From assembly GCF_028288185.1 (NCBI RefSeq), contig NZ_JAQBOF010000040.1, positions 186,001 to 250,000 on the forward strand: a stretch of DNA of 64,000 nt. The letters run 5' to 3'. How positions within the stretch are numbered: the stretch's first letter is position 1; each line of letters starts with the position of its first letter. Shown piece after piece: positions 19,595 through 39,729 of the stretch. Under the pieces are notes generated by a model, which saw only the letters and a program-made list of their open reading frames with translations, searched no databases and was not told the DNA's origin. A program made the position numbers and the translations under genes. The stretch is from Mucilaginibacter sp. Lineage in GTDB: Bacteria > Bacteroidota > Bacteroidia > Sphingobacteriales > Sphingobacteriaceae.

Positions 19595-22500
19595 TTAAAA
19601 GGTTAAACTAAAATTAATATATGGATAAAAACCTTCTTTGGAGTACCCTCCCTTAACCTGAAACAGCGCCATATCTGACGGTGAAAAATACATGCCGCCC
19701 CCAAAACCGTTATGCCATTCGGTTGAATGTTCACCCTTTACCCATACGCGCCCTATATCATATGCCGCTGTAAAGCCAAACTGCCCCGGTGTGATATATG
19801 GGAAAAAGTCGCTTAGCTTTATTCTTGCGTCTAAATTATTGTACATCATTTGCTGGCCTGCAAACCGATTTTGTTTGAAGCCGATCAGATTGTTTTCGCC
19901 CCCTAAAAACATGGATTGATAAAAGGCAGTTTGCCCAAAAGTGATACCGCCACCAAGCCGCTCAGATATAACAAAGTTTGATTTGGTATCAACACTTTTA
20001 TATAAAATTGCTTCAGGAATGGCCTGAAAAAAAGTACGCGCCGAACTGCCTAAACCTGCATAAGCTTGTATTCGCACGTTTACGTAAACTCCCCAATCTG
20101 TAAGCGCCTTGTTATTGCGTTTATCATTTATATAAGTAACTACAAGCCCTAAATGCATTTTGTTTTTATTGATAGTGGTACTATCGTAAGAATGGATAAG
20201 ACTGGTATTACCGGTAAGATGCAGATTATTGTTGATGATGGAATTATAGTATTGTACAGACGGGCCTATTCTTAAACTGGTAGTACCGGCCAGGTTTTGA
20301 AAGCGTAAGGTCGCATCGGCAGTATAATAGCCAAAGCGGGCCCGGTAATAGTCCTGGTACTGGCCGGTTTTATTAAAAGGGGTTTGATTACCCAATCCAA
20401 AGAAATTTATAACGTTAGGGAAATAGGCTTTTACCGCAATTTCGGCATCGGCTTTATCAATTGCGTTACTCCAATCGCCAGTGTAACTAAAACGAGTTGA
20501 CCGTGTGCCAAACGCCCTGCCAAGAATAACTTGCTGCGAACTACCCGGATCTTTCCGAAACCCCTCGTGAACATATTTAAAGCCGGCATCGGCATATAAC
20601 CCGTCATCAATATTATACCCCATTTTTAATAGCGGTATCACCGTATGATATAAATTGGTAGGTATATAAGCTACGTTTGATGTGTCGTTAGATATATGTT
20701 TATCAATCAGGCCTTGCGCGGCACCTGTAAAAGTAGCAGAGTTAACTTTTTCATAAACATTTACCGTTCGGCTTGCATTCACAATATTATACTGTTTATG
20801 GCCGTTACCGCCAATTATTCTAACTTTAATGTGCGATATTTTTTTATCTACAAAAACACTGTCGTCACCCTTTGAGATATAAAGACGCACTTCTTTAGTG
20901 ACCTTAGGATCAAAGATCCGGGAGAATAAAATATTTTTGCGACTCTTTTCGGCGGATACCGTTGTTTGAATAATTATATTGCCATTAAGGGTATCCCTGA
21001 TGCTGAATTTCTCACTAAGGTCTGTTGCTTTAATATCAACCCGGCGATTAAAAAAACGATAATAGGTTTCGGCGGCGTCAACCAAACTGTTCCGCCTTTT
21101 TTTCATTAGCGCCAGTAGTTCTTTATGCCGTATGCGGTAAATGGCTAATGGCATTTTGCGCAAAGCATTTTCTAATACCTTATCGGTTAGCGCGGCGGCA
21201 AAGGCGCGGGTTACCTGCATCCATTGCTCATGGCCAATTTGGGTCATGAACCTGGTGTTAAGTATATGGTCATTTAGATAAAAATCGTTGATTGATTTAG
21301 AACCTGCATTATAACCCTTTAAATAACGTGCCACCCACTGCCGCGAAGCTATATGGGGTATTAAACCCTGGTTAGTAAAAAACACTTCAGAACGATCATG
21401 CGGAACTGCGGTGAAATATCTTATCCCATTCCTTATTTTGGCTTGCCAGCGCCATTGGTCTTCATGCTCATCCCAATCGCCCAAAAACCAATCGAGCAAG
21501 CGAGCTTTAAAAAATTCTATGCTGTCTATCCGGTTGTTATAATCAGCATTTAGCAACTTTATCATATTGCTTGTATTGATAGAGGTATCGCTACCCGGTT
21601 CGCGCTCATCTATCAGGCATATTTTACCGGCAAACTCTTTTTCGTAAAATCCCAGGTGAGTATCTGGTGCCACCCAGCCAATGGTTGGGGTGGTATGGCT
21701 TACTTTAACAACTGCTGCAAGTTCTGCCGCCATTATTGCGCCATATGGGTATTGGGCAGACATGGCATCGTTTAACCATGCTTTTGCGAAAGTTTGCCTT
21801 AACGCCTGTGGTAACAATATCAAAGGGTATTTTTCAATACTGCTCATGATATAGCTTTTACCCGCTGCGTTTTTTAGCAACAATGATTTTGTTTGGTGAG
21901 TACCGCCATAGCCTACTGGTTTTAACCCGCCCTGGTATTGGTCTATTTTTATAATAGGTAATGTTGCTTTTACCGACCATTCTTTGCGGTAGTTTTCGCC
22001 GTAAAGAATGCGGTGCAGTTTGCCAACATTATTAAAAGATGGATGGGCGGCTATAGTAATGCTGTCTTCTTTAATTACCTGGTCGCTTTTTTCAACCGGG
22101 ATATGCACCTTAATAAATGGGCGATTGTGAGTGAATACTTTTTTAAATACGCTGTCTTTGGCGGTATTAGCAAAATAGGTAAACTTCATGCTTTTGTCTA
22201 TCATCAAGTCTACTGTTACATAGCCAGCCTCTTTTAAAGCGAATAAAGAATGCTTGCCTTTTTTAACAACGGCCTGCTTTGCACCGGCACCACTTACAAC
22301 CTGCATTACACCTCCATCGTTTATAAACTGTAAGCCATGCTCATGGCCCGACACCCGAACAACGTTAGAGTCGATGTTAAAGACTCTATTGATCTCTTGG
22401 ATCATGGTTTTGTATAAGGGGTGGCCATTATCTTCGGGGTTATCAAAAGTGCCACGCAATAGAGGATAAAGCGCACCTAAACCAGGCAGGGGGATATATA

Positions 22501-23200
22501 AACTGCTTTTAACTGATGTTAGCGGGAACAAATAATCCTGCCATATATAGCTGCCACCATGGTGCCCGTAGGTTTCAAACGGGTGATGATCTGCGAGGAT
22601 AATGATCTTGTTTCGGTTCTTATATAATAGTTCTCTAAACCTGTCAATAACCTCATCGTTGGTTTTGCAATCGCAATCTGCATCGGGATTGTCTTTATTG
22701 TAAATATATAACCACCACTCCGAGTCGAAGGCTATTACAACCATGTCATCGTTTATAGTGATTTCAGTAGGGTCAGGGCAGCCTTTTGCAGGTACCAGCT
22801 TTAATAGTGAATCTTTTTGCTCCATTAAATACTCGCCCTCTCTTTTTATTTTTGCCAGCCCCTTTGGCCCCATGCGGTCCCAATCATGATTGCCGGGAAT
22901 AAAATATACGGGCGCGCCTGCCGCACGCATTGGTTTATATTGTTGTTGAAGTATTTTTTTTGTCCCTTCTTCTTCTTTACTACCGGGCAGCCCCATACCT
23001 ATTGGATAGATGTTATCACCCAGGTATAATACCGAAGTTTTGCCTTTTAAAACGTTCCCGGCAGCGCTTTGCAGCACCCCGTTTTGTTGTTTGCCGAGTT
23101 CGCCGGCATCACCAATTAATATAATACGGTATCGTACAGAATCTTGCGCGTGAGTTATAAGTGCGGCAAATAATAAGGATAGTAAAAAAAGCTTTTTCAT
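19595..23200 (-). CDS. Metallophosphoesterase fused to an outer-membrane beta-barrel
   Basis: The 1201-aa protein has a signal peptide (LFLLSLLFAALITHAQ). Residues about 25-340 are a calcineurin-like phosphoesterase with all metal motifs: GDAGELG, YLGDNIYP, GNHDWD, ILADHHPFETYGHHGG and VSGHEHGLQF. The middle (about 400-850) is unrecognised and has many aromatic and basic residues. The C-terminal 300-350 residues read as strands of an Omp85/TamA-like surface-antigen barrel (FVISERLGGGITFGQ, MFLGGENNLIGFKQNRFAG) and end in YINFSLTF, the usual outer-membrane C-terminal Phe. It is probably a surface or periplasmic phosphatase tethered by its own barrel. It is read in the same direction as the kinase operon, 112 bp downstream of the last kinase gene. 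Confidence 0.8.
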   Translation of the reverse strand: MKKLFLLSLLFAALITHAQDSVRYRIILIGDAGELGKQQNGVLQSAAGNVLKGKTSVLYLGDNIYPIGMGLPGSKEEEGTKKILQQQYKPMRAAGAPVYFIPGNHDWDRMGPKGLAKIKREGEYLMEQKDSLLKLVPAKGCPDPTEITINDDMVVIAFDSEWWLYIYNKDNPDADCDCKTNDEVIDRFRELLYKNRNKIIILADHHPFETYGHHGGSYIWQDYLFPLTSVKSSLYIPLPGLGALYPLLRGTFDNPEDNGHPLYKTMIQEINRVFNIDSNVVRVSGHEHGLQFINDGGVMQVVSGAGAKQAVVKKGKHSLFALKEAGYVTVDLMIDKSMKFTYFANTAKDSVFKKVFTHNRPFIKVHIPVEKSDQVIKEDSITIAAHPSFNNVGKLHRILYGENYRKEWSVKATLPIIKIDQYQGGLKPVGYGGTHQTKSLLLKNAAGKSYIMSSIEKYPLILLPQALRQTFAKAWLNDAMSAQYPYGAIMAAELAAVVKVSHTTPTIGWVAPDTHLGFYEKEFAGKICLIDEREPGSDTSINTSNMIKLLNADYNNRIDSIEFFKARLLDWFLGDWDEHEDQWRWQAKIRNGIRYFTAVPHDRSEVFFTNQGLIPHIASRQWVARYLKGYNAGSKSINDFYLNDHILNTRFMTQIGHEQWMQVTRAFAAALTDKVLENALRKMPLAIYRIRHKELLALMKKRRNSLVDAAETYYRFFNRRVDIKATDLSEKFSIRDTLNGNIIIQTTVSAEKSRKNILFSRIFDPKVTKEVRLYISKGDDSVFVDKKISHIKVRIIGGNGHKQYNIVNASRTVNVYEKVNSATFTGAAQGLIDKHISNDTSNVAYIPTNLYHTVIPLLKMGYNIDDGLYADAGFKYVHEGFRKDPGSSQQVILGRAFGTRSTRFSYTGDWSNAIDKADAEIAVKAYFPNVINFFGLGNQTPFNKTGQYQDYYRARFGYYTADATLRFQNLAGTTSLRIGPSVQYYNSIINNNLHLTGNTSLIHSYDSTTINKNKMHLGLVVTYINDKRNNKALTDWGVYVNVRIQAYAGLGSSARTFFQAIPEAILYKSVDTKSNFVISERLGGGITFGQTAFYQSMFLGGENNLIGFKQNRFAGQQMMYNNLDARIKLSDFFPYITPGQFGFTAAYDIGRVWVKGEHSTEWHNGFGGGMYFSPSDMALFQVKGGYSKEGFYPYINFSLTF

Positions 23201-23312: not shown

Positions 23313-24605
23313 TTAAAATAGACCAAGAAATTTCTTTTTTTTAGCTTTTCGTTTCTTAACAATTGGAGCCCGTGCTTTTGATTTACGCGCTTTTGCAATG
23401 CTGTCTTTGGTCTGATTAATTGCTGTTGTATTTGGAGGAGTATAACGAAACATAAATGGCACATATGCAGTAGTTGCTTGCGGGCTGGACTGATATACTA
23501 TTTTTTTGGAAGAAAGGCCGTAAACGCTCAAACCAACCAGTATTATTATAAATACAATCCCTCCGTTAAACAATGACCTGGGCACTGTTATGGTTGATTT
23601 TTGCACAAAGAGTGCGGCTTCCTGTAACTGTATCAGTATTGTTTGCAATGTTTCATTTTCGGTTTTTAATGCCACTATATTACTGTCGGTATTACCTGCC
23701 GAAACGCTGTTCTCTACAATTGCGTCTTGCAGGTACATGCCGTTAGCGTAGCGATCCTCGGGCTTTTTTTCAAGACATTTATAAATGATATTTAAAAGCC
23801 AGGCCGGCACTTGCATTTCGTGCTGTTGTTGTGCTGCAGTCCAGTTTTTAGGCAGATTTTCCTTTCGTAAACTTAATAGATCGGGCACCGGAGATTCCAT
23901 GTGCGCGATCATTACCGTATTTCGTGCTGTTTCTCCATTGTCATGCAGCGGGAACGGCACGCTGCCAGCCAATAACTCAAATAATACCACACCAAAACTG
24001 TAAATATCTGTTTGAAAAAGCATTTGGCCCTCATTCTGCTCGGGGGCCATAAATTCTATAGCGCCGGCATGGCGCATACTGCTGCGGCGCTCCTCGTCTG
24101 ACATGATCGACAGGCCAAAATCCAACAACACGTAATTGCCCGTATGAATATTAAATTTAATGTTATTGCTTTTGATATCACCGTGCTTTACGCCTACTTT
24201 ATGGCAATGTGCCAAGGCTCCGGCCAACTGGTCGGCAAGTTTAATGGTTTCTTTTATACTGAAAATTTTCTCGTGCGGTTCAGACAGCAGCTCACACAAA
24301 TCAGGACCTTCTATAAACTCCATTTCTATAAAAGGCAGTGATCCGCTTTCTGTAATGCCCCAGCTTAATATTTTAACCACGTTGGGGTTAGCTACCTCGT
24401 TTACTTTTTTAAGTTTTTCAACCTCGCTTACAAATTTTCTGTAGTTTTTGTCGTCAAGACTCTCGTTAGCAATAGGTGTAGGTAAAAGTTTCACGGCGCT
24501 TAGGATAGGCCCTATGCGCCGGCCTTTATAAACAGAGCCTTGACCACCGGTGCGTAACGCGCCCATGTTCTCCAAGCCTTCCATTATTGTAAACACCTTG
24601 CTCAT
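23313..24605 (-). CDS. Transmembrane Ser/Thr protein kinase 1 (non-RD)
   Basis: The 430-aa protein has a Hanks-type kinase domain (about 10-275): glycine loop RTGGQGSVYKGRR, the ATP Lys in AVKLLP (K39), catalytic loop HGDIKSNN, metal motif LLDFGLS, then EFMAPEQ and TDIYSFGVVLFELLAG. The catalytic loop reads H-G-D instead of H-R-D, so it is a non-RD kinase, expected not to depend on activation-loop phosphorylation. A TM helix lies near 347-367 (GGIVFIIILVGLSVYGL), with a short basic outer tail rich in Lys. It is the last gene of the operon and starts 5 bp after the FHA gene. Its kinase domain is nearly identical to kinase 2 (32122-33447). Confidence 0.92.
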   Translation of the reverse strand: MSKVFTIMEGLENMGALRTGGQGSVYKGRRIGPILSAVKLLPTPIANESLDDKNYRKFVSEVEKLKKVNEVANPNVVKILSWGITESGSLPFIEMEFIEGPDLCELLSEPHEKIFSIKETIKLADQLAGALAHCHKVGVKHGDIKSNNIKFNIHTGNYVLLDFGLSIMSDEERRSSMRHAGAIEFMAPEQNEGQMLFQTDIYSFGVVLFELLAGSVPFPLHDNGETARNTVMIAHMESPVPDLLSLRKENLPKNWTAAQQQHEMQVPAWLLNIIYKCLEKKPEDRYANGMYLQDAIVENSVSAGNTDSNIVALKTENETLQTILIQLQEAALFVQKSTITVPRSLFNGGIVFIIILVGLSVYGLSSKKIVYQSSPQATTAYVPFMFRYTPPNTTAINQTKDSIAKARKSKARAPIVKKRKAKKKKFLGLF

Positions 24606-24610
24606 TTATC

Positions 24611-25399
24611 TTATTTCCTCTTTTTATAACTAAATTCTATCACGGCTGTTTCGCCCAAAATAATTTGGTCACCTTCTGTTAACTGGTGGCCTATTTGGCT
24701 CGAATGCAATTTTACCAGGCTATCATTAGCCACCGACCGTATCTTTACTTTATTACCGGGTGGAATGCCGCCTTCGTCAGCATAAAGCATAAAGCACCCT
24801 TTTTCATTATTCCACTCCAAATGCGCGTGCTGCCGACTGATATATTTGTTGTGTTCATTATTAATGTCGCCGGAGAAAGCTATATGGTTAGTCCTGAAAA
24901 AGCCACCCTCTACTTGTGCCGTTTTTTCGCGGCCGATATTTAACTTGCCATCATCAGATTTGATCTGGTAAACAGATTTTTCGGCCTCACCATTTAATAC
25001 CCTGATATAGGCTGAACCTGATCTTTGGATCACATGATCTTTGGTGCGAATAAACAGCGCCGCGTTAATATCAGCTAATTTTACAGCCTCGGGCGGAAAC
25101 TTTTCATCGAAGTTTACCTCCATTTCCCAATTGTCGGGCAGTCCTATGTCAAAATCATCGGCAATACGTTGCACCTCGTCTTTAAATTTCTCAGGGTCAT
25201 CCTGATATACGGCAGCCTCATACATGTGTTTATCACTACCGCTTGCAGCTATAAAAAGGTTAATGCCTTTGATATTGCGACCCTCGCCGCCCTCAGATTT
25301 TTGAAGATTTTCTTTTATGCCGCGCAACAAAGCATCGCGCACCGCTTTTACATCGCCGGGGCTATCATTATCCTGTCCAAATATTTTGAATATGCTCAT
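24611..25399 (-). CDS. FHA-domain phosphothreonine-binding protein
   Basis: The ORF track starts at 25441, but the ATG at 25399 (MSIFKIFGQDND) lies 4 bp after the preceding stop and is the likely start, giving 262 aa. Residues about 165-258 form an FHA domain with the diagnostic GREK and ISRQHAHLEW (S-R-x-x-H) blocks and a final VIEFSYKK strand, so it should bind phosphothreonine peptides. The first 150 residues are an unrecognised acidic alpha/beta region. It is cytoplasmic. It sits between the RodA-PBP fusion and kinase 1 with gaps of 4 and 5 bp, so it is firmly in the operon and is a natural reader of kinase output, like FhaA/FhaB next to PknB in actinobacteria. That functional comparison is inference. 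Confidence 0.88.
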   Translation of the reverse strand: MSIFKIFGQDNDSPGDVKAVRDALLRGIKENLQKSEGGEGRNIKGINLFIAASGSDKHMYEAAVYQDDPEKFKDEVQRIADDFDIGLPDNWEMEVNFDEKFPPEAVKLADINAALFIRTKDHVIQRSGSAYIRVLNGEAEKSVYQIKSDDGKLNIGREKTAQVEGGFFRTNHIAFSGDINNEHNKYISRQHAHLEWNNEKGCFMLYADEGGIPPGNKVKIRSVANDSLVKLHSSQIGHQLTEGDQIILGETAVIEFSYKKRK

Positions 25400-25403
25400 T
25401 AGT

Positions 25404-28400
25404 TTAATTTGTTGTTGTGTCCGGCACTTGATTTGGCGCATCCATAATTTGCTCCGGTTTGGGCAGATTTAGGTTTTGCGTTTTATCAGGCACAATACTT
25501 TTGATATACCCTTTTTTGATCAGCAACGGAATTATGTGCTTGCCAGCCAGACGTACCGCATCTGCCGATCCTTTGGTCGATTCGATCCTGATACATACAA
25601 CTATGTTGCCTGTACCCTTTGCCATCGGCGCAAAAAATACGTACCATCCATCATTAATGCTTTCTTTTTTCCAAATGCGTTCAGGCGTACCTGTTTTACC
25701 GGCTACACTCAATCCCAGTATTGGCACTTTGGGGGCGCTTTGCTCTATCATAAACTTGGTTATAAGCGCAGCATATTGCGGATCGTTAGCAAGCTTGATA
25801 CTGCCTTTAACGGGCTGCCCGGCATCGCTTACCTTTAATACAAAACGGTTAGCAACCAATTCGCCATTATTTGCAATGCCGGATACCAATCTTGCAACCG
25901 CGGCCGGCGTAGCAATCAGTTCGCCCTGCCCCCAGGCCATGCCCGAAATACCTTTGGCACGCGTGCGGCGTATATTATTTGGGTCGTAACGCGGTTTGGT
26001 ATTAAACTCGGTTTTACGCCAAAAGTCGCGCCATTTTTCTTCCTGTGTGGTATTATCCGGCTGTTTACCATAAAAGTATCCGCCAACGCCATGCAAAAAC
26101 ATTCCGGTTTTTAAATATAAAGTAGCCATGTCTTCCTGCAACTGTTCCTGATTAGCTAACTTAATAAAGTACACATTGTTTGATTTTGCCACAGCTCTTT
26201 CTAACGTTATCACACCTGTTTCATCGGGCTCAATGCCTTTGGTGCGTATACGCTCCCAACTGGCAACCGTAAATTTTTTATCGACAGCGGCTAAACCAAG
26301 CTTGTTGAAGGATGCCATGGTAGTTATTAATTTAGCCGTCGACCCCGGTTGCGTGGCATAGGTAAAGCCCAGATCACTTGTGGTGAGCCATTGCGATAGC
26401 TTGTTTTGCTCGTTAACCGGCATAGTTAACTGGTCCCAGTTGTGGATAGGCGGCAGCGGATAAACTGCTGATGCCAATACATCGCCGGTAGAAGGCAGCA
26501 TAACTACCACCGATACCCTGTTATCATAAAGAGAGGTATCTGTCGCTATTGACTTTTGTATCTTAGTTTGCAGGTCGGCATCTACCGTTAACTTTACATC
26601 ACGGTTGCGGCTTTTAAATTCGGCCACTTTGTTGCTGTTAATACCTGCTATAAGCAACGGCGCCAAGGCGCTGTAATCTTTCTTGCTCACCGACATTTCT
26701 TTTACGCCACGCGGTAAAAACCGGTCTTCTTTAAACCTGTTGGCATGGGTATTATAATTGGCTACAGGCATGTTAAAGCCGCGCAATTCTGCCGCGTGCT
26801 CATACTCGGCAAAGTAACCGTTAGTGCTTCCGTTAAAAACACCGGTATTAACATCGCCCACCCAAAAAAACATTTGTTCTTCAAACGGGTAGTAACGTGT
26901 CAGCCTTTTATGCATTGCCGAGTCCAGGTTATAATTCTGGATGCCCGATGAATCTAACAACCGGCGTTGTTTTTGTATCAGCAGCGGGTTACTGGTGGCC
27001 AGTATCCGGCCATCTCGGTCGTAAAGTGTACCGGCCTGTAGTTTGTTCATTAACACCGCAATGCGAGGATTATAGCTAAACATCCGCGCGCCACTTCTGT
27101 CGGCTACCAACGCGGGTTTTACTATCCATTTGGCATTGATGAATAAATAGCGCGAAACATTTACTGTAAGCAGCAATATGCCTATACAAGCCATTGCCAA
27201 AGCAGGTACAAGATTGTGGTCCTGCTGTTTGGTAATAAAGCTCATTTGTACAGGTGTGCCTTTTACCCGTGATGCTGAAAGTAAAAAACCGGCGGCTATA
27301 AAATTTGCAACCAGAGATGAGCCACCATAACTTTCGAACGGAAGCGAAACACCCGATAATGGCAATGCCCCGGTTGAGCCGCCTGCGATCAGCAAAAATT
27401 GCACAAATGTGCAAATACCTATGCCCGCGCATAAATAAAATAAAAATGGTGTCCCTGTTTGCCGGCCTATAATAATGGACCGGTGCAGGTAAAGCAAAAA
27501 TATCAGGAAGATGCACACAATACCAGTCCATCCAAACTCCTCGCCAATAGAGGGCAATATCATGTCGGTATGTGCTTCGGGGATGGTTTTGGCAAATCCT
27601 TCGCCTACACCTTGGCCGGTTACGCCTCCGCTGGCCATGGCCCAAAGACCGTTGGCTACCTGGTCGCCGCCGTAAACCTCGTTATCCCAGGCGTCCTGCC
27701 ATATAGCTTTTCGTTCAACTAAGCGTTGTACCGGCCCGGGTATCAATTTATCAAGATGCGGTATTTTATCGATGGTTAAAAAGCCCGCTATGATGATCAA
27801 TGCCATAATAGCCGACTCGCTTAACTGTTTCCTTTTGAATGCCGTTATAGTTACCAGCATTATAATAGTGGCTAAAGCAGAAAGCCAAACATTCTTAAAT
27901 ATCCAGGTAATGAGCACATAAAAAATAACCGAGCCTGCCATAAACAGGAAATCGCCCCGCGAAAACGAGAACAGGATGATGAAGGTAAAGCAGATCACCA
28001 TAGCCGGCCCCAGATCGCCCAATATTAAAAACAGGAATAGTGCGACAGCGATGGATATAACCGCGAACGAGAAGAACGAGAACCGCTTTTTAAAACTGGC
28101 GTACTCGCTAATAAAACGCTCGTTAGCGGCAAAAAATCCTGCTAAAAATATGATCACTAAATACTTTACGATCTCGCTCGGTTGAAAACCAAACAGGTTA
28201 ACCTTTACTCCGCTGCCCTCAGGTCCCGAGCCAAAGCGTATGGTTAACGCCAATAAACCAATGGCGATAACTATCCATGGCCAGCCGTTTGCCGCTCTGC
28301 GGTTATTTTTAAAGACTAGTAATCGATAAAGGGTTGAATCGGCTGTGAAGCGGCGCATGTTAAATAAAAGCATGACTATCATACCTGCAAACCCCATTGC

Positions 28401-29543
28401 AAGGTACATCAATGTGTCTTTAGCCAAAAACCTATCCCGAAGTGGGTCCTGCAGGCTCAGTAAGGTTAAGAAGGACAAGCCGGTAAGTACCATTATAAAT
28501 GGCAGTATCAATTGGTCGGCGGTGCTGAATTTCCAGTTTAAAATTAAATGAGCCAATGCAAAGCAACCAAAAAAGCAGGCTATGATAATTAAAAAGGATG
28601 AGTTAAATTCGGCCGGCGTACGGATAATAAATGACCGTTCTTTTTTAAGTATGCTAAAGTCGCGCGTTGATAATAGCTTGATAGTATGCGGCGAGCGGTT
28701 AAAGTTAAAAACATTGTCTTCGTTTAAATTGTCGGTTCCGGCCGAGAAGCCAAACTGGTAACCTGGTTGCAGCGGTAAAATTTCAAACGCTTTACCGGTC
28801 GGCAAATTCTTAAAGGTATAGTGGCCCTGGTCATCGGTACGGGCAAACGCTACCAACGATTGTAGGTGCCGTTGCTTTTGCTCATCCAACACATATACTT
28901 TTTTTACACCAGTCGTTTGTTCGGTTTTGGTTGATACCAGGTCTATTTCTTCATCGTTATAGGTGCTATCCTGCGGCAACACCAATTGCAACCGCATTAG
29001 CACACCTGCAACGGGCGTTTTTTTTTCAAACACCTGCCCGGATATTGAACTGCCTGATAGTCCAACATCGGTAATCGCAGGTAAAAGAGGCGGCTTGATT
29101 CGTTCCTCAACAAATCGTAACGAGTCATCGCCGGTATACCCCAGTAACGAGCGCGACACGACTACCCTTTGCTGAAACGATTTGCCCCCCTGGCTCATAG
29201 CCATATCGGCGTTAATATTGTATCGTTTTTTATTTAACTCGCCAATGTTTTCAAACTTACTGCCTGGGGTTACCCTATCGGCAATAACTTTTTCAATCAG
29301 GTCTATATCGCGCTTGTCCTCAAAATAATATCCTCGTTCTAACAAAGTGCGGACATTTTTTGCCGGGTTTTTTGCATTGAGGTTTACCATTGTGCCGTCT
29401 TTTAAACGTTTATCTACATCGGTAAAATTCTTTTGTTCGATATAATATAACCTGCCAAAAAGCAGGGCCAATACAAACCCGATCAACGCAAGGAACAAGC
29501 GTTCTTTTTTCCTGCCACCCGATGCTATAATCTCCTGCTCCAT
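25404..29543 (-). CDS. RodA/FtsW glycosyltransferase fused to class B PBP transpeptidase
   Basis: The 1379-aa membrane protein has a TM helix at about 17-33, then about 280 outer residues with a carboxypeptidase-regulatory-like beta domain (VAGVLMRLQLVLP; DDQGHYTFKNLPTGKAFEILPL). Residues about 320-770 are the SEDS polymerase (FtsW/RodA/SpoVE) with GFQPSEIVKY, QGVGEGFAKTIPEAHTDMILPSIGEEFG and GVSLPFESYGGSSL. From about 800 a class B PBP follows: LYDRDGRILATS, the active-site STAK (Ser near 1068), SNN (near 1117) and KTGT (near 1281). The two halves normally are separate partner proteins; here one chain joins cell-wall polymerisation and cross-linking. ATG overlaps the PP2C stop by 1 bp (TAATG), so translation is coupled. 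Confidence 0.93.
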   Translation of the reverse strand: MEQEIIASGGRKKERLFLALIGFVLALLFGRLYYIEQKNFTDVDKRLKDGTMVNLNAKNPAKNVRTLLERGYYFEDKRDIDLIEKVIADRVTPGSKFENIGELNKKRYNINADMAMSQGGKSFQQRVVVSRSLLGYTGDDSLRFVEERIKPPLLPAITDVGLSGSSISGQVFEKKTPVAGVLMRLQLVLPQDSTYNDEEIDLVSTKTEQTTGVKKVYVLDEQKQRHLQSLVAFARTDDQGHYTFKNLPTGKAFEILPLQPGYQFGFSAGTDNLNEDNVFNFNRSPHTIKLLSTRDFSILKKERSFIIRTPAEFNSSFLIIIACFFGCFALAHLILNWKFSTADQLILPFIMVLTGLSFLTLLSLQDPLRDRFLAKDTLMYLAMGFAGMIVMLLFNMRRFTADSTLYRLLVFKNNRRAANGWPWIVIAIGLLALTIRFGSGPEGSGVKVNLFGFQPSEIVKYLVIIFLAGFFAANERFISEYASFKKRFSFFSFAVISIAVALFLFLILGDLGPAMVICFTFIILFSFSRGDFLFMAGSVIFYVLITWIFKNVWLSALATIIMLVTITAFKRKQLSESAIMALIIIAGFLTIDKIPHLDKLIPGPVQRLVERKAIWQDAWDNEVYGGDQVANGLWAMASGGVTGQGVGEGFAKTIPEAHTDMILPSIGEEFGWTGIVCIFLIFLLYLHRSIIIGRQTGTPFLFYLCAGIGICTFVQFLLIAGGSTGALPLSGVSLPFESYGGSSLVANFIAAGFLLSASRVKGTPVQMSFITKQQDHNLVPALAMACIGILLLTVNVSRYLFINAKWIVKPALVADRSGARMFSYNPRIAVLMNKLQAGTLYDRDGRILATSNPLLIQKQRRLLDSSGIQNYNLDSAMHKRLTRYYPFEEQMFFWVGDVNTGVFNGSTNGYFAEYEHAAELRGFNMPVANYNTHANRFKEDRFLPRGVKEMSVSKKDYSALAPLLIAGINSNKVAEFKSRNRDVKLTVDADLQTKIQKSIATDTSLYDNRVSVVVMLPSTGDVLASAVYPLPPIHNWDQLTMPVNEQNKLSQWLTTSDLGFTYATQPGSTAKLITTMASFNKLGLAAVDKKFTVASWERIRTKGIEPDETGVITLERAVAKSNNVYFIKLANQEQLQEDMATLYLKTGMFLHGVGGYFYGKQPDNTTQEEKWRDFWRKTEFNTKPRYDPNNIRRTRAKGISGMAWGQGELIATPAAVARLVSGIANNGELVANRFVLKVSDAGQPVKGSIKLANDPQYAALITKFMIEQSAPKVPILGLSVAGKTGTPERIWKKESINDGWYVFFAPMAKGTGNIVVCIRIESTKGSADAVRLAGKHIIPLLIKKGYIKSIVPDKTQNLNLPKPEQIMDAPNQVPDTTTN

Positions 29544-30982
29544 TATTTTTGTTTGTAAGCTACAGGAAGCGAGTCGGCCTTAAAGGCTTGCAGGCTGCCG
29601 CTAATAAATTTATTGCCTGGGATGGCAAACAGGTTTTGCACCGCTACAGAGCAATTATCAAACTTTACGTTTTTTAGTAACAACGCATTATTATATGCGA
29701 TGATACCGGTCTTAAAGTTTTTGATGGTTAAGCTATCCAGCATCACCAATTTACATTGTTGAGCAAGATTAAATGCAGCACCGTTATAACCGCTATCGGC
29801 AACCATCTCAACCTTCCCTTTGGCTTTTATAAATAGTGTATCGCGTTTTATTAGCATGGCGCGACTAATACTTATTGGCGAAGAAAATACGGTATCAGTA
29901 AGTATAAGCAAGTTCCCCTTCAAGCCATCTATGGCATTTTGTAACTTAATTTCGAGGGCGCTCTGTGGTTTACTGCCCATAGGCGTAACCGCTTTGGCAA
30001 CAACCGTTGTGGTTTGTTTATTTTGCCGGTATTGCCAAATGTTGCCCCCTAAAAAAATAAGAGCTAAAAAGGCTAATAGCGCTACTGTTATTCCTTTACT
30101 TTTTTGCGGCATTAGTTCGGTGTTGTCATGTTGTGTAATCGGCGTATGTGCTATAACCGTGTCAGCAGCTATCGGCAGTTCATTTTTTTTTTGATTAGCG
30201 GCCGGCATGGTGGCATCATGTTTTAGGGCTTGCTTATCGTTTTTCACTAAAACCACCGTAATGTTATCCTTGCCTCCCTTGGTATTTGCAGCATTAATTA
30301 GCTGGTAGCACTTATCTTTTAGCGAAGATCCGTCTGGTGTGATTATCGCGGCAATATCAGAGCTTGTAACCATATCGGTTAAGCCATCGCTGCAAAGCAA
30401 CAGCATATCGCCCGGCAAGAAAGGCGATTGTCCCGTTTCGATATAATCGCTGTCTTTAGCCAGGTTGGCTTCAAACCCCAGCGCCTTGTTAATTTCGTTT
30501 CGTTTGGGATGCGTCATAGCCTCTTCCTCGGTTATCCGGCGCGATTCTTCTAAAAAACCAACAAATGATTGGTCGTGTGATATCTTGATCAATGAATTAT
30601 CGCGCAGCAGGTACAACCGTGTATCGCCTATATGTGCGTAATAAAACTGGTTGCGTTCAATATCTACCAGGGCAAGTGTAGCAACACAGGCCATGCTATC
30701 GTGTTCTTTAACGCGACTCTTCTCGTCCAGTATCTTTTGGTTGGCCTGGTTAAAACAATCTATCATTATCGGGATGATCTCGCCGGCTGGTTTGCTTAAC
30801 CGTTGCAGTATGGCCTCGCGAGCCAGTTCGGCCGCAATTTCGCCACCCGAATAGCCGCCAACGCCATCAATAACACAGGCAATAATAAATTTACTGCCGA
30901 CAGTAGCCTGCGCAATAAACGTATCCTCATTATTCTTTCTTTCCTTACCGGTATCGGTTAGCCCGTAAAACTGATCAGCCAT
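29543..30982 (-). CDS. PP2C-type Ser/Thr phosphatase with membrane anchor and outer domain
   Basis: The ATG at 30982 (MADQFYGLTDTGKERKNNEDTF) is preferred over the TTG start at 31009 in the track, giving 479 aa. Residues 1-240 are a PP2C catalytic domain with metal motifs KNNED, DGVGGYSGG, AHIGDTRLYLL, CSDGLTDMV and GKDNITVVLV. A TM helix follows near 298-316 (GITVALLAFLALIFLGGNIW), then an outer segment with beta-helix-like repeats (VFSSPISISRAMLIKRDTLF, MLDSLTIKNFKTGIIAYNNALLLKNVKF). It should reverse the action of the two operon kinases, like PstP in mycobacteria. Its start overlaps the stop of a 33-aa membrane ORF by 8 bp and its stop overlaps the RodA-PBP start by 1 bp. Confidence 0.9.
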   Translation of the reverse strand: MADQFYGLTDTGKERKNNEDTFIAQATVGSKFIIACVIDGVGGYSGGEIAAELAREAILQRLSKPAGEIIPIMIDCFNQANQKILDEKSRVKEHDSMACVATLALVDIERNQFYYAHIGDTRLYLLRDNSLIKISHDQSFVGFLEESRRITEEEAMTHPKRNEINKALGFEANLAKDSDYIETGQSPFLPGDMLLLCSDGLTDMVTSSDIAAIITPDGSSLKDKCYQLINAANTKGGKDNITVVLVKNDKQALKHDATMPAANQKKNELPIAADTVIAHTPITQHDNTELMPQKSKGITVALLAFLALIFLGGNIWQYRQNKQTTTVVAKAVTPMGSKPQSALEIKLQNAIDGLKGNLLILTDTVFSSPISISRAMLIKRDTLFIKAKGKVEMVADSGYNGAAFNLAQQCKLVMLDSLTIKNFKTGIIAYNNALLLKNVKFDNCSVAVQNLFAIPGNKFISGSLQAFKADSLPVAYKQK

Positions 30983-31076
30983 TGTTTCGTCGTGAATTTT
31001 TGATATCAAAAAAATGAGTAGCTAATAATATAACAACAATAACCAACAAGCCTGCCGATAGTATTTGTGACATCAT
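30975..31076 (-). CDS. 33-aa single-TM protein inside the kinase operon
   Basis: This gene is too short for the ORF track. ATG at 31076 gives MMSQILSAGLLVIVVILLATHFFDIKNSRRNNG. It has one hydrophobic helix (ILSAGLLVIVVILLATHFF) with a short N-terminus and a basic C-tail, so N-out/C-in or a tail-type insertion is likely. It starts 4 bp after the FHA-like gene's stop (31081) and its TGA (30975-30977) overlaps the phosphatase ATG by 8 bp (ATGGCTGA). Placement within the operon and the tight coupling on both sides favour a real gene. A second ATG immediately before or after the first leaves the start uncertain by one codon. No family was recognised; a subunit or regulator of the phosphatase or wall enzyme is possible. 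Confidence 0.65.
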   Translation of the reverse strand: MMSQILSAGLLVIVVILLATHFFDIKNSRRNNG

Positions 31077-31080
31077 ACCC

Positions 31081-32031
31081 TTATGATTTAAATATATTAA
31101 CACCTACTATGCCGTTAAGCAATATCCTTGAGTTTACAGGCAACTCGACCCACGATGGCGAATTAATATCGCTTTTCTCCACCTCATTCTCATTTAAAAT
31201 GGTGCGCTCGCCAAACGAGGCCAGGTAAAATTTCCCGTCGGATTTGTTTAACCTAATCTGCAAATGCGGCGTATTTACCCACTCGGTTGGTATTTTAAAG
31301 ATATTTGATTCTTCGCGCGTTTCTTCATCGCCCGATATGATGACCTCATCGTCCTTCATGATAAATTCAACCTTTTTGCCGGCAAACTGCTTTTCGGGCA
31401 AGATGGTCTCAAAACGTGCAAAGGTTTTTTTGCGATCATCGACCGGCGCATTCTCATCATATTCCAGGTCATCGATATAAGGTAATTCATAATAGCCTTC
31501 ACTGTAATAATTAAAACCTTTCAACACATCCTGGCTTACATCAAATGTTTGAGCTATACCTGTTTGTCGGGGTATGAAAGTCACCCTTAAATTCTCTTCT
31601 TTTTTTGCACTGCCCGGCAATAGTTTACCCATAAAACCGATATCTCCGCGGGCGTAATCAGGATGAGATACCAAACGGAACACCCATTTAGAACTTGATG
31701 GTACCACCGTTTTACCTGCTGCACGGTATTGTTTTAGCTGCTCATAAAACTTTTTTACCGTTTCATTTACGATCAGCCCGAATATGCCCTGTTTGTTGTT
31801 CATAAACTCTTGATAATCATCAGAGTTAAAGCTAATAATATATTCGTGGTAAAATACAATACGGTCGGCAAATGATAGCTGGCGAATGGAATCGTTGAAT
31901 TTATCCATTACATAATTGTAAACATCATCAGGTGTAAGTAACGATTGTTTCTTTTTTCCACTAATGTTTTCGCTGGTTAAAAACCAGTCCTGTAGTCCGA
32001 TACGTTGCCAGATAGAGGTCTTGGGGTCCAT
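31081..32031 (-). CDS. FHA-like degenerate domain protein of the kinase operon
   Basis: The 316-aa soluble protein has no signal or TM. The N-terminal 230 residues are helical then beta-rich and unrecognised (DDVYNYVMDKFNDSIRQLSFADRIVFYHEYI; FARFETILPEKQF). The last 80 residues read like an FHA fold: IPTEWVNTPHLQIRLN, then FYLASFGERTILNENEVE and VELPVNSRILLNGIVGVNIF, which matches the strand and glycine pattern of FHA ends but lacks the canonical S-R-x-x-H motif. It is therefore probably a divergent, non-canonical phosphopeptide or protein-binding domain. It follows kinase 2 by 90 bp and precedes the 33-aa ORF by 4 bp. Confidence 0.6.
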   Translation of the reverse strand: MDPKTSIWQRIGLQDWFLTSENISGKKKQSLLTPDDVYNYVMDKFNDSIRQLSFADRIVFYHEYIISFNSDDYQEFMNNKQGIFGLIVNETVKKFYEQLKQYRAAGKTVVPSSSKWVFRLVSHPDYARGDIGFMGKLLPGSAKKEENLRVTFIPRQTGIAQTFDVSQDVLKGFNYYSEGYYELPYIDDLEYDENAPVDDRKKTFARFETILPEKQFAGKKVEFIMKDDEVIISGDEETREESNIFKIPTEWVNTPHLQIRLNKSDGKFYLASFGERTILNENEVEKSDINSPSWVELPVNSRILLNGIVGVNIFKS

Positions 32032-32121
32032 GTAATTAATATGAGGGGGTTAATGTGCTTTGAATAACATAATTACCAGCCCGGATGTTTTAAACTGATA
32101 ATCATTAATTAGCTAATTAAT

Positions 32122-33447
32122 TTATTGTGTATCTGATGTATCTACCATAGTAGTATCCGGCTCATATCGGTTCTTTTTTGATTTTTGTATTTCTTCGTTA
32201 ATGGTGGCTCGGGTTATTGAATCGGCAATACGTTTTCTCTCCTTGCCTAAGGCCCGGTTTTTTAGTTGGTTTTCGGTTATGCTATCGGTATGCCTTGCAG
32301 CAGTATCTGTTACAGGGGTTAAAGTCGTGTTGTTTTGATTTGCAGGATTTTTAAATAACGAGTAACCCGTATATCCCATAAAACCCATCAGTAATAACAT
32401 CAATATGGCAAAAACCGGTTTCGACATCCGGATCATATTACTTTGCCCGGGCTGGTAAGCAGCAACCGATTCAACAACAGCTTGCGGTTCTTGTTGCAGT
32501 ACAACACCTTCAACCTTTAAGCTATCATTTAATTTTATGTTGGCGATGCTGTGCTGTATAATAGCATCGTGCAACTCCATACCATTGGCATACCGGTTCT
32601 CCGGCAATTTCTCCAGGCATTTGTAGGTAAGGTTAAGCAGCCATTGGGGCACATCCATTTCCTGCTCCTTTTGTTTTTTTGGCCATCCGGTGGGCAGGTT
32701 TTTCTTCCTCAGTTTTAAAATATCTGGTACCGGCGACTCCATGTGAGCTACCATCACCGTATTTCGGGCGGTTTCGCCGTTATCTGCCAGTGGGAACGGA
32801 ACCGTGCCGGCCAATAACTCAAATAATATTACTCCGTAGCTGTAAATATCTGTTTGGGGCAACATTTTGCCTTCATTCTGTTCGGGCGCCATAAATTCAA
32901 TAGCGCCGGCATGGCGCATACTGCTTCGGCGTTCCTCGTCTGACATGATGGACAAACCAAAATCCAACAACACATAGTTGCCCGAGTGCACATTAAACTT
33001 TACGTTATTGCTTTTAATATCGCCATGCTTAACCCCTACGTTATGGCAATGTTCTAACGCGCAAGCCAACTGATCGGCCAGTTTAACTACTTGTTTCAGG
33101 GTAAATATTTTATCGTTAGGTGGCGATATTAGTTCGCCCAAGTCTGGCCCTTCTATAAATTCCATTTCGATAAATGGAAAAGCCCCGCTTTCTGTAATTC
33201 CAGAGTTAAGTATTTTTACAACATTTGGGTTGGGTATCTCATTTACTTTTTTTAGTTTATCAACCTCATTAAGGAAATTTCGGTAATTTTTATCATCTGG
33301 GCTTTCTGATTGGATAGGTGTGGGCAGAAGTTTAACGGCGGTAATAATAGGCCCGATCCGGCGTCCTTTATAAACAGAGCCCTGTCCGCCCGTTCGCAAT
33401 GCTCCCATGTTCTCAAGGCCTTCGGTTATAGTAAATACTTTACTCAT
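32122..33447 (-). CDS. Transmembrane Ser/Thr protein kinase 2 (non-RD), operon leader
   Basis: The 441-aa paralogue of kinase 1 shares almost all of its first 270 residues (RTGGQGSVYKGRR, AVKLLP, HGDIKSNN, LLDFGLS, EFMAPEQ). It too is non-RD (H-G-D). A TM helix lies near 345-362 (MSKPVFAILMLLLMGFMGYTGYSLF). The outer tail differs completely from kinase 1, being Asn/Thr-rich then Lys/Arg-rich and ending TTMVDTSDTQ, so the two kinases may share cytoplasmic substrates but sense different outer signals. It is the first gene of the operon. No TM-linked PASTA repeats are present, unlike PknB. Confidence 0.92.
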   Translation of the reverse strand: MSKVFTITEGLENMGALRTGGQGSVYKGRRIGPIITAVKLLPTPIQSESPDDKNYRNFLNEVDKLKKVNEIPNPNVVKILNSGITESGAFPFIEMEFIEGPDLGELISPPNDKIFTLKQVVKLADQLACALEHCHNVGVKHGDIKSNNVKFNVHSGNYVLLDFGLSIMSDEERRSSMRHAGAIEFMAPEQNEGKMLPQTDIYSYGVILFELLAGTVPFPLADNGETARNTVMVAHMESPVPDILKLRKKNLPTGWPKKQKEQEMDVPQWLLNLTYKCLEKLPENRYANGMELHDAIIQHSIANIKLNDSLKVEGVVLQQEPQAVVESVAAYQPGQSNMIRMSKPVFAILMLLLMGFMGYTGYSLFKNPANQNNTTLTPVTDTAARHTDSITENQLKNRALGKERKRIADSITRATINEEIQKSKKNRYEPDTTMVDTSDTQ

Positions 33448-33981: not shown

Positions 33982-34842
33982 ATGAAAAAACTATTGATCG
34001 CCACCGACTTTTCTTCCAATGCAAGGCATGCGGCTGAATATGGTTATCTGCTTGCCAAACAATTAAAAGCGGGTATTTTCCTTTGTAATACTATAACTAT
34101 ACCTGTAGAAATACCTATGGCAGGCTGGGCGACCTGGCCACAGGATCAGGGTGAATTACTATTGGAAGATTCTACTGAAGAATTAAAACGTTTAAAGGCC
34201 CATCTGGAACATACTGATCATTCCACAAGCTTCAGGCCACCGGTAGATTATTTAAACGAAGCCGGAACAGTAAGGCAAACGGTAAACGAAGCAGTAGCCA
34301 AGCAAAAAGTTGATTTGATAGTGGCCGGATCACATGATCCCGACAGGCTGGGTACTTTTTTATTAGGAAATCATATGCACGAATTGATCGAGTTCACTAT
34401 TAAGCCTTTGTTGATCATTCCTAATACAGCTAAGTTTACCCCGATCAAGAAAATAGCTTTTGCCACAGACCTGGAGAATCCTGAAAATGACCTGAAACAT
34501 TTTTATGAGTTGATAGAATTTGCTCGGCGATTAGATGCTGAAATTCTGCTTACGCATATTTATAAGAACGAAGATCATTTATTAAATTTTGAAAAGGGTA
34601 TTGAAAAATTCTTGTTAGAGATCTCCAATAAAGCTAACTATCCACAAATTTTTTACCGCGTCATTAAACACGATAAGGTAGAGATGGGTCTGGATTGGCT
34701 TTGTGAACAAGGCCACATTGATATGCTGGCTATGGTGCATAGGCCGCATGATTTTTTAGATAGTATTTTAAAAGGCAGTCATACTAAAAAGATGGCAAAG
34801 CATATTGCTATACCATTGTTAGTCTTTCCTGAAACTAAGTAA
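33982..34842 (+). CDS. Tandem universal stress protein (UspA), copy 1
   Basis: The 286-aa cytoplasmic protein carries two UspA domains (about 1-145 and 150-285). Domain 1 opens KKLLIATDFSSNARHAAEYGYLLAKQL, then VDLIVAGSHDPDRLGTFLLGNHMHELIEFTIKPLLII. Domain 2 opens IKKIAFATDLENPENDLKHFYELIEFARRL and ends DMLAMVHRPHDFLDSILKGSHTKKMAKHIAIPLLVF. The second domain lacks the usual G-x-x-G-x(9)-G ATP loop (it has KGSHTKK), so only domain 1 may bind nucleotide. Tandem Usp genes under FNR-type control are known from low-oxygen regulons of several proteobacteria. A second tandem Usp gene lies at 38842. Box 1 stands 63 bp upstream. Confidence 0.88.
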   Translation: MKKLLIATDFSSNARHAAEYGYLLAKQLKAGIFLCNTITIPVEIPMAGWATWPQDQGELLLEDSTEELKRLKAHLEHTDHSTSFRPPVDYLNEAGTVRQTVNEAVAKQKVDLIVAGSHDPDRLGTFLLGNHMHELIEFTIKPLLIIPNTAKFTPIKKIAFATDLENPENDLKHFYELIEFARRLDAEILLTHIYKNEDHLLNFEKGIEKFLLEISNKANYPQIFYRVIKHDKVEMGLDWLCEQGHIDMLAMVHRPHDFLDSILKGSHTKKMAKHIAIPLLVFPETK

Positions 34843-35109: not shown

Positions 35110-36897
35110 TTAGTCTGTTATAACAATAGTGTTGAGTTTGTTTTCAGATGTTGTTAACGCCAGGAATAAATCTTCCATATTAAAAGTTGCCTGCCAGGGT
35201 AGTTTTTCAAAAAGCGTTTTGTAATAATTTAATCCTTCCTGTAATTGCATTTTAAATTTATGCAGGCTTTTTTTCTTCTTTTCGGTAAGGTCTTTAAAAT
35301 GGTTTTGGATGTCTGTTTTAAGGTAGTCTATATAAAGATCTATTTCTTTTATAAAGATATTTGGGCGCTGCACCGTTTTTAAAAGGTCGATTTTGCCATA
35401 TATATGCATTACCATTTCTTCGAGCGAATAAATTCTGCTAAAGTAGGTTAGGTTAGGGCCAGGGCATATGGCAACTGCTTTGCTTTCTTTGCGTTTTACT
35501 ATGTCATACTTAATATAGGTTGATGAGCATAAACCTTCGCAAAGACAGATTTTTTCGGTTATGGCATTAAATTGCTCCTCGTATTCTTCTTGTGGCAAAG
35601 CCAATCCTTGGATCTGCTTTATTTTTAGATTTTGATATTCTCTTGAGGCGGTACAGATGGGTTTCTCGGTAAACTCGGTATTGGTACATAAATATTTTTT
35701 GGTGCAGGGGCTGCCGGGTCGGCCTTTTTCCAGGCGTTCTAATCTTTGGGTTTCCGCACTGCTTTGTTTAAAATTATTAAATAATATGCCTAATGGTGAT
35801 GCACCGCTTAAATAAAAATCAGCTTCAGTGGCATTGGTTAACTGGGTTAAAGTTTGGTCATCAACATTAGTTACTTCGGGTACTAATAAAAAAGGGCTTC
35901 CCCAACCAGTTCCGTCAAGCTGGTAGTAATCCATCATGAAGTCGTTTTCCTCCGAAGTACCTATGCCGCCTTGCACGCTTATGCGTTGTGCAGGGATAGG
36001 CAGTAATTCTAATCTCTTTTGCAACATAGCCGGTTTATAAAGCTCGAAAAGTTCATCGACCATCGTTTCTCTTTTTTGCTTAAACTCCTCCAGTATGGGG
36101 CCTAATAAATAGCCCTCAGTCGCAAAAGCATGCCCTCCGCAATTTAAACCGGACTCTACCCGAAACTCTGACACCCATAATCCTTTTTTAGCCAAAAACT
36201 TAGCCTGTATTAATGCCGAACGGAAATCACTCACTTTTAAAATAATTTTTTTACTAAACTTACCTTCGCTGTCTGGCAAAAAGCAATCAAAATTTTCAAG
36301 GTAACTATATAAACGCGGGTTCATGCCGGCTGATAAGACAACTGATGATTGAAGATTGCTCTCGGCGAACCCGCGCAAAGCGGCAAGCGCGTCTGTGTTT
36401 TCATCGCCTAAATATTCTCCATCGGCATTAAAGTTCATCTTATCTACCTTAGCCATAATGTTAACATCAATAGAGCCAACCTTAATGCTACGGCGCAGTA
36501 TGTTTTGAAAAATTGTTTTACGCTCACCATCCGGATAATCCATCATTAATTCATAGCCCTGTTTTAGTTGAGAGCCATCAGGCAACAATTCAAAGTACCG
36601 GCACAGATCATTGTTGAGTACAAAAGGGAGCTTTTTTAGCTCGGCAACTTGTTGGCTAACCAAGCTCTCAACCAAGTTTAAATAAGCTGTTATGCGCCTC
36701 GCCCGTGCGTTATCTGCCGATTTTGGTATGGCAATATATTCAATGCCATTTTGTTTGGCGTGATATTCCCTTATGCGCTCAACCAACTCATCATCAACAA
36801 TAGAAATCGCAGACGAGATGCCGTACCTGGCAACTTTTAATGGCGTATCGATGGAAAAACCTAATCCTAATACCGGGATATGAAATGTATGGCTCAT
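35110..36897 (-). CDS. NMO/2-nitropropane-dioxygenase-like protein with Cys cluster
   Basis: The 595-aa cytoplasmic protein keeps parts of the nitronate monooxygenase (NPD) TIM barrel: GLNCGGHAFATEG (the GGH flavin/catalytic block, about 252-262), SVQGGIGTSEENDFMMDYY (310-325) and FLLVPEVTNV. It is far longer than the usual 320-350 aa. A cysteine-rich region follows, with Cys at about 398, 404, 415, 451, 453, 457 and 478 (CTKKYLC, CLCEGLC, ICPGP), suited to bind an iron-sulfur cluster or zinc. The C-terminus is a helical domain of about 100 residues. The gene is divergent from the coiled-coil/CoA-transferase pair, and the shared intergenic region carries two FNR-type boxes. A flavin-dependent redox role under low oxygen is a guess. 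Confidence 0.6.
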   Translation of the reverse strand: MSHTFHIPVLGLGFSIDTPLKVARYGISSAISIVDDELVERIREYHAKQNGIEYIAIPKSADNARARRITAYLNLVESLVSQQVAELKKLPFVLNNDLCRYFELLPDGSQLKQGYELMMDYPDGERKTIFQNILRRSIKVGSIDVNIMAKVDKMNFNADGEYLGDENTDALAALRGFAESNLQSSVVLSAGMNPRLYSYLENFDCFLPDSEGKFSKKIILKVSDFRSALIQAKFLAKKGLWVSEFRVESGLNCGGHAFATEGYLLGPILEEFKQKRETMVDELFELYKPAMLQKRLELLPIPAQRISVQGGIGTSEENDFMMDYYQLDGTGWGSPFLLVPEVTNVDDQTLTQLTNATEADFYLSGASPLGILFNNFKQSSAETQRLERLEKGRPGSPCTKKYLCTNTEFTEKPICTASREYQNLKIKQIQGLALPQEEYEEQFNAITEKICLCEGLCSSTYIKYDIVKRKESKAVAICPGPNLTYFSRIYSLEEMVMHIYGKIDLLKTVQRPNIFIKEIDLYIDYLKTDIQNHFKDLTEKKKKSLHKFKMQLQEGLNYYKTLFEKLPWQATFNMEDLFLALTTSENKLNTIVITD

Positions 36898-38841: not shown

Positions 38842-39729
38842 ATGAAAACTATACTGGTATTAACAGACTTTACAATTAAGGCAGACCATGCTGCGCATTA
38901 CGCGTTAAAACTGGCACATAAAATAAAAGCAAATTTATTATTGTGTAATGTGTACCCCGAGCCAGCTGTCATCTCTGCATCGGCCCATACTTTTTGGAAT
39001 GGTAATGAAAGCGAAAATTTTGAACAGGATAGTTTAAATGATCTTACTGAGTTGGCCGGCCGTTTAAACAAGCAATTAGAAAATACTTGCGATGACGAAT
39101 TTAAGCCTACCGTAGAGTTATGTAGTAAGGCCGGGCCGTTAACCGATGCTATTAACTATATAGTAGCCAGCAGGCAAATACTATTTGCAGTTATTGCAAC
39201 CCACAACGCTGATGATTTAATGGCTTTTTTAAATGGGAACCATGCTAACGAGATCATAGAGAATGCTAATTGCCCTGTGTTGGTTTTACCATATCAGTTA
39301 CCATTTAACGGGTTTAAAAAAATTGCCTTTGCTACAGATTTAGCACATAATGGCACTGATGTTTTGCATAGCTTATACAATATCACCAAATATTTTGATT
39401 CGGAAGTGTTAATTACTCATGTGGGTATGGCAAAACTGGCTAAAGTAACAGAAGATTATATAACCAAACGTTTTTTGCGCCAGGAAATAGGGGTAAGTCA
39501 TTATCCTAAAATTCAATACAGATCGGTACAAAACAAAAGTATTACCGCCGGCTTGCAATGGCTGGCAGAGCATGACGATATAGATCTTTTAGTGTTAGTA
39601 CACCATAAACGTAATTTGATCCAAAAAATATTCGAGCCAAGCATTACAAAAAAATTGGCTGACCGTTTTGCTAAACCGATGTTGGTTTTTCCAAGCTCTT
39701 ACGAGCGTGGTAGTGTGCCAATATTGTAA
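38842..39729 (+). CDS. Tandem universal stress protein (UspA), copy 2
   Basis: The 295-aa protein repeats the two-domain Usp layout of the 33982 gene: KTILVLTDFTIKADHAAHYALKLAHKI at the N-terminus and FKKIAFATDLAHNGTDVLHSLYNI opening domain 2, ending DLLVLVHHKRNLIQKIFEPSITKKLADRFAKPMLVF. Sequence identity to copy 1 is moderate, so the duplication is old. It begins 19 bp after the CoA-transferase and is likely the last gene of that operon. A hairpin follows at 39749-39780. Confidence 0.88.
   Translation: MKTILVLTDFTIKADHAAHYALKLAHKIKANLLLCNVYPEPAVISASAHTFWNGNESENFEQDSLNDLTELAGRLNKQLENTCDDEFKPTVELCSKAGPLTDAINYIVASRQILFAVIATHNADDLMAFLNGNHANEIIENANCPVLVLPYQLPFNGFKKIAFATDLAHNGTDVLHSLYNITKYFDSEVLITHVGMAKLAKVTEDYITKRFLRQEIGVSHYPKIQYRSVQNKSITAGLQWLAEHDDIDLLVLVHHKRNLIQKIFEPSITKKLADRFAKPMLVFPSSYERGSVPIL

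Follow-up and report, generated by a model that had tools for sequence, protein, structure and literature searches.

The window analysed here is a 64,000-nucleotide stretch of a Mucilaginibacter sp. genome (contig NZ_JAQBOF010000040.1, positions 186,001 to 250,000). It carries a six-gene operon on the minus strand (33447–23313), transcribed in the order pkn1, fhaA-like, pp2c, rodA::pbp, fha, and pkn2, in which a fusion of a RodA-type SEDS protein with a penicillin-binding protein (PBP) is accompanied by kinase, phosphatase, and FHA genes. All six genes lie where the original prediction had placed them (Table 1), and Pfam searches backed its calls of the kinases, the PP2C phosphatase, and the RodA-PBP fusion. 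In transcription order, the intergenic gaps are 90, 71–98, −1, +4, and +5 bp. Tight packing with the 90-bp gap as its lone exception had been claimed; that gap was recovered, but a second real gap precedes pp2c, whose best start is ATG 30982 and whose furthest possible start is TTG 31009. An overlap of fha with the fusion gene arises only from the first ATG of its open reading frame (ORF), which gives 38 bp, whereas ATG 25399, the start common to homologues, gives the +4 gap. In the whole-genome Pfam search, both Pkinase matches (n = 2), the sole PP2C match, and the sole above-cut-off FHA match fell in this operon.

Table 1 Genes of the operon in transcription order.
Gene	Coordinates	Strand	Product and basis
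pkn1	32122..33447	−	Hanks-type Ser/Thr kinase; Pfam Pkinase 2.8e-33
fhaA-like	31081..32031	−	FHA-fold protein (profile and model); FhaA_N-type N-terminal domain via homologues
pp2c	29543..31009	−	PP2C Ser/Thr phosphatase, Stp1/PstP type; PP2C_2 4.1e-14
rodA::pbp	25404..29543	−	1379 aa; Pfam FTSW_RODA_SPOVE and Transpeptidase in a single frame
fha	24611..25399	−	FHA domain (Pfam FHA below cut-off); FhaA_N-like N-terminus by homologues
pkn2	23313..24605	−	Paralogous Hanks-type Ser/Thr kinase; Pfam Pkinase 3.5e-33

The full-length fusion was present in 15 of 101 genomes sampled from the family, counting that of the window (65–75% identity), in 65 of 201 genomes of a wider sample (64–88% identity; 4 of 15 genera), and in 15 of 396 genomes sampled across the phylum, a count that leaves out five matches to unfused RodA. 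Many members of the same genus have no fusion. In each of the 14 relatives whose neighbourhood was inspected, the fhaA-like, pp2c, and fha genes kept their order around the fusion, and one kinase gene or two lay at either end. With the core set present in all 14, the gene set is strongly conserved and not a product of chance. Among 295 genomes of the class, the fhaA-like gene turned up in 7, every one a fusion carrier. The scenario that would have counted against the original prediction, that other Bacteroidota rarely keep these genes together, was not borne out: their presence is patchy, but the fusion comes with FHA genes and nearly always with a phosphatase and a kinase.

A scan of named genomes placed carriers in Acidobacteriota (most matches), Spirosoma, Larkinella, Fibrisoma, Fibrella, Pedobacter, Chitinophagaceae, Rhodothermales, and one Opitutaceae metagenome-assembled genome (MAG). 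FHA genes flank the fusion on both sides in most of the distant carriers. The order in Acidobacteriota is fhaA-like/pp2c/kinase/rodA::pbp/fha (complete in 31 loci); Spirosoma and its kin have the same order with two kinases, and the window type has its kinases at the ends. The core order fhaA-like/pp2c/rodA::pbp/fha, together with kinases, is also present in Larkinella and Chitinophagaceae. Rhodothermota keep fhaA-like/rodA::pbp/fha, with PP2C fused on in one case. That case, Roseithermus sacchariphilus (L104:6937-11091 / L108:8191-12345), carries a PP2C::RodA::PBP triple fusion of 1384 aa between FhaA-like and FHA genes; the N-terminal half of its FHA gene aligns with a Swt1-like HEPN domain (Pfam match in the L101 homologue). 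A complete six-gene copy lies on the 137-kb plasmid NZ_CP089545.1 of Spirosoma oryzicola (69767–80323; L191), followed downstream by a response regulator and then a sensor histidine kinase. Genome G369 contains a second, divergent RodA::PBP fusion of 1307 aa (L105:5165-9088). A kinase gene lies close to it, and neither FHA nor PP2C was matched within the retrieved stretch, so that the same enzyme type has a different context here.

The fusion starts with a transmembrane helix, followed by an extracytoplasmic helical part and a Cna-B/carboxypeptidase-regulatory-like beta-sandwich (approximately residues 40–310), a SEDS glycosyltransferase domain (ca. 345–760), and a class-B transpeptidase domain (ca. 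1011–1324). The SEDS catalytic Asp and the SxxK, SxN, and KTG motifs of PBPs are all present. D660, S1068, K1071, S1121, and N1123 were conserved in 97 of 97 fusions and the KTG lysine in 95. Since the catalytic residues are invariant in these 97 fusions, the protein is probably an active polymerase and transpeptidase. D660, matched through the HTD motif, we take to be the counterpart of D262 of E. coli RodA (described in PMC10449877). Engineered RodA-PBP2 fusions are active (PMC6207328, PMC10449877). The available text of the latter also mentions natural SEDS-PBP fusions, which resemble ours in joining both activities in a single ORF; unlike here, no kinase/FHA/PP2C operon context is given for them in that text. 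The model of the N-terminal domain (predicted local distance difference test score [pLDDT] of 85) resembled Cna-B/prealbumin-like sandwiches (pilins, carboxypeptidase D tail) and dioxygenases only weakly and locally, with poor TM-scores; these matches name the fold of the region but not a function.

The same genome has a canonical mreB-mreC-mreD-pbp2-rodA cluster and an ftsW in the dcw cluster; therefore, the fusion is an additional, third SEDS-PBP synthase. The canonical Rod system and the dcw ftsW/ftsI share SEDS and class-B PBP chemistry with the fusion, but their genes are separate, phylogenetically distinct from it, and without adjoining FHA, kinase, or phosphatase genes.

Pkn1 consists of a kinase domain (1–300), one transmembrane helix recognised by eye (ca. 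346–369), and a short extracytoplasmic tail, and Pkn2 has one transmembrane helix and a basic C-terminal tail. The two are close paralogues, identical at 239 of 300 residues in their kinase domains. Pkn1 has HGD (non-RD type) and DFG motifs, and the operon kinases are of the HGD type, like their Acidobacteriota counterparts. They scored 130–136 bits against the NCBIfam model PknB_PASTA_kin (cut-off 450), over the kinase part only, and neither gave a Pfam match to PASTA repeats, in agreement with the original prediction. The phosphatase scored 202 bits against NCBIfam Stp1, below the cut-off of 230; it has one transmembrane helix by eye and an extracytoplasmic C-terminus, at which an acidobacterial homologue (L110) has a Beta_helix match, a right-handed beta-helix.

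The fha product scored 18.6 bits against Pfam FHA on its own (cut-off 20.7) and 21.4 bits in the genome search, and its GR and SRxH residues for phosphothreonine (pThr) binding are invariant in 14 homologues. Its N-terminus could be linked to actinobacterial FhaA_N through acidobacterial homologues (hhalign chain, 92% each). The fhaA-like product had no Pfam match as a single protein. However, the profile of its family matched solved FHA domains (E 1.1e-6) and its AlphaFold model matched FHA structures (E about 1e-6 to 1e-5), and the earlier label "FHA-like" is upheld by both. A profile search of the PDB with this family retrieved FHA structures, including the FHA domain of mycobacterial FhaA, and not the structure of the FhaA N-terminus. 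Among homologues of the fhaA-like protein, FhaA_N was matched once above the cut-off (L100; 26.5 bits, cut-off 25) and four times more weakly, below it; hhalign tied the window protein's N-terminus to these homologues (97%). In the control search with FhaA_N, one genome among the named controls was above the cut-off, Corynebacterium or else Sulfolobus. The acidobacterial and Rhodothermota homologues keep the pThr-contacting residues of the FHA domain.

To place the fusion, a SEDS tree of 56 rows and a PBP tree were built. In the SEDS tree, all fusions made up a single clade (100/100) that grouped with the FHA-linked RodA of actinobacteria and clostridia (100/99), and the canonical RodA and FtsW that these genomes also encode lay outside; the nearest named relatives of the window fusion were those of Pedobacter and Ferruginibacter. 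Topology tests rejected both a grouping of the fusions with canonical RodA (approximately unbiased [AU] p 0.007) and a single RodA clade without the fusions (p 0.005). In the PBP tree, the fusions and actinobacterial/clostridial PbpA fell on one side and PBP2 and FtsI on the other (97/85). On the basis of these trees, the module is assigned a common ancestry with the actinobacterial locus; with FhaA_N in the homologues and the hhalign links, this makes independent assembly unlikely. The mycobacterial likeness claimed by the original prediction is therefore more than superficial.

The actinobacterial locus fhaA-fhaB-pstP-rodA-pbpA-pknA-pknB (Mycobacterium, Corynebacterium) contains the same types of parts as the window operon, including a short class-B PBP, membrane Ser/Thr kinases, a PstP-type membrane PP2C, and a second FHA protein with intact pThr-binding residues. 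Reached via records in a plasmid collection, the locus of Actinomyces oris could be read directly as DUF3662-FHA, FHA, PP2C, RodA, PBP, kinase, and PASTA kinase, and that of Tsukamurella has the same parts with the phosphatase stretch unannotated. A difference in order, fusions, and domains had been predicted; the fusion and the lack of PASTA stand, but the order is closer than claimed, fhaA-pstP-rodA-pbpA being common to both. In actinobacteria, RodA and PbpA are separate genes, FhaA combines FhaA_N (DUF3662) with an FHA domain, and PknB has PASTA repeats. The window operon instead has one frame with an added N-terminal extracytoplasmic domain, FhaA_N matches in homologues alone, a degenerate upstream FHA (in the window clade), a second FHA gene after the synthase, and no PASTA. 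With its fused RodA and PbpA and without PASTA, the operon, though related, is outside the usual definition of the actinobacterial locus; by these two features and its degenerate upstream FHA, it is best described as a related but distinct lineage. In the clostridial record of Monoglobus pectinilyticus, an FHA gene likewise adjoins RodA and PBP genes, and this SEDS belongs to the clade that the fusions join, but the genes are unfused and the annotated stretch shown has no kinase or phosphatase.

We consider it likely, from sequence comparison, that the operon specifies a dedicated peptidoglycan synthase under control by phosphorylation, and that it forms a separate lineage homologous to the actinobacterial locus. 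The fused SEDS domain would polymerise lipid II, the product would be cross-linked by the class-B PBP domain, and the extracytoplasmic domain at the N-terminus would probably sense the wall or envelope or be anchored to it. Pkn1 and Pkn2 would phosphorylate threonines of the synthase or of its partners; pThr would be bound by the FHA protein, which would recruit or switch the synthase, the FhaA-like protein with its degenerate FHA would probably be a structural scaffold, and the PP2C enzyme would reset the system. Because the genome keeps the canonical Rod and division machineries, this third synthase would be accessory and conditional. Gene content, the conservation of active sites and of linkage, and the phylogeny are observed here; we infer the phosphorylation targets, the switching, and the physiological role from work on mycobacterial FhaA, PstP, and kinases. 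The actinobacterial counterpart of the operon works in growth and division (PMC11898655, PMC6554272).

Several observations weigh against this interpretation. In the alignment of the window clade, GR and the SR of SRxH are missing from the C-terminal FHA of the fhaA-like protein. No direct FhaA_N match was found in the window genome by profile search, the fhaA-like protein included, and the link runs via homologues. Common descent covers SEDS and PBP alone, FhaA_N being suggestive, and the trees took in few actinobacterial sequences and one clostridial sequence. Finally, because its presence is patchy, the module is dispensable.

Convergence would be the opposite account: a local RodA and PBP2 became fused, and unrelated kinase, PP2C, and FHA genes joined later. 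The fused RodA and PBP, the HGD kinases without PASTA, and the different place of one FHA gene fit it, but we regard it as very unlikely given the exclusion of the fusion SEDS from canonical RodA, the FhaA_N matches in homologues, and the core order common to Acidobacteriota and, as fhaA-pstP-rodA-pbpA, to actinobacteria. A chance neighbourhood of a defence- or secretion-related kinase/FHA/PP2C set and a wall synthase is hardly credible. The kinase domains match the PADLOC models PD-T4-6 and MADS6, and type VI secretion loci also employ kinase, PP2C, and FHA genes. Nevertheless, it is the synthase that stays constant as the core from phylum to phylum, no secretion genes occur among the flanking genes examined, and none of the FHA-like, FHA, or synthase proteins matched PADLOC; the matches are limited to generic kinase domains, and a phage-defence role was rejected. 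The remaining alternative concerns physiology, with the synthase as effector of a conditional envelope response (repairing or remodelling the wall during stress or when antibiotics or competitors attack) rather than of routine control of growth and shape. We hold this to be a real possibility, if somewhat less than an even one. The canonical rod and division synthases, the patchy spread, which leaves out many species of the genus, and the plasmid copy speak for it; the growth and division role of the actinobacterial counterpart speaks against it, as does the tight conservation where the module is present (64–88% identity), which suggests steady use.

The original prediction spoke of a module "independently assembled or transferred". 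Direct or recent transfer from actinobacteria is unsupported: RodA and PbpA of actinobacteria are related to the fusion domains as a sister clade, and the phylogeny proposed as a check placed the fusions beside, not within, the actinobacterial/clostridial group. In contrast, the plasmid copy, the patchiness, the grouping of the Opitutaceae (MAG) fusion among Acidobacteriota sequences, and split placements suggest horizontal transfer among carriers; the split placements concern a pair of genomes from one family (f2) and a pair of Chitinophagaceae, each divided between different fusion clades. Loss may instead account for the patchy pattern, and contamination of MAGs among the oddly placed carriers is possible. 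A single clade of Bacteroidota and Rhodothermota fusions was not rejected (p 0.07), so these may have descended vertically.

Three other features of the window were noted. A 1201-aa protein at 19595–23200 combines a calcineurin-like phosphoesterase with an Omp85-type barrel, and no relation to the module was seen. A 595-aa protein at 35110–36897 has no Pfam match; the C-terminal third of its chain contains several cysteines. Universal stress proteins with tandem domains are encoded at 33982–34842 and 38842–39729, and one of these two genes lies immediately upstream of the operon, on the other strand.

SEDS-PBP fusions (PMC10449877) and the actinobacterial locus are already known. In the open-access literature searched, we found no paper that reports this gene set in Bacteroidota or Acidobacteria or that joins the fusions to the actinobacterial locus, consistent with the earlier statement that it had not been described for this phylum. 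It has long been asked how SEDS-PBP synthases are controlled by Ser/Thr phosphorylation and FHA proteins, and most work on this comes from mycobacteria, in which removing the parts is difficult. The set described here is compact, wholly missing in many relatives, and has its synthase in one chain, and beyond it the genome has no detected Hanks kinase, PP2C, or above-cut-off FHA; this would make clean deletion and reconstitution feasible. With a chance that we put close to even, the module represents a third, transferable class of wall synthase system beside the Rod and division machineries, in which one SEDS::PBP chain has a closed kinase/phosphatase/FHA circuit to itself; it would share an ancestor with the actinobacterial operon and have spread horizontally, including on plasmids, among Gram-negative Bacteroidota, Rhodothermota, and Acidobacteriota. 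The finding would also mean that a wall-control module viewed as actinobacterial is older or more mobile than assumed.

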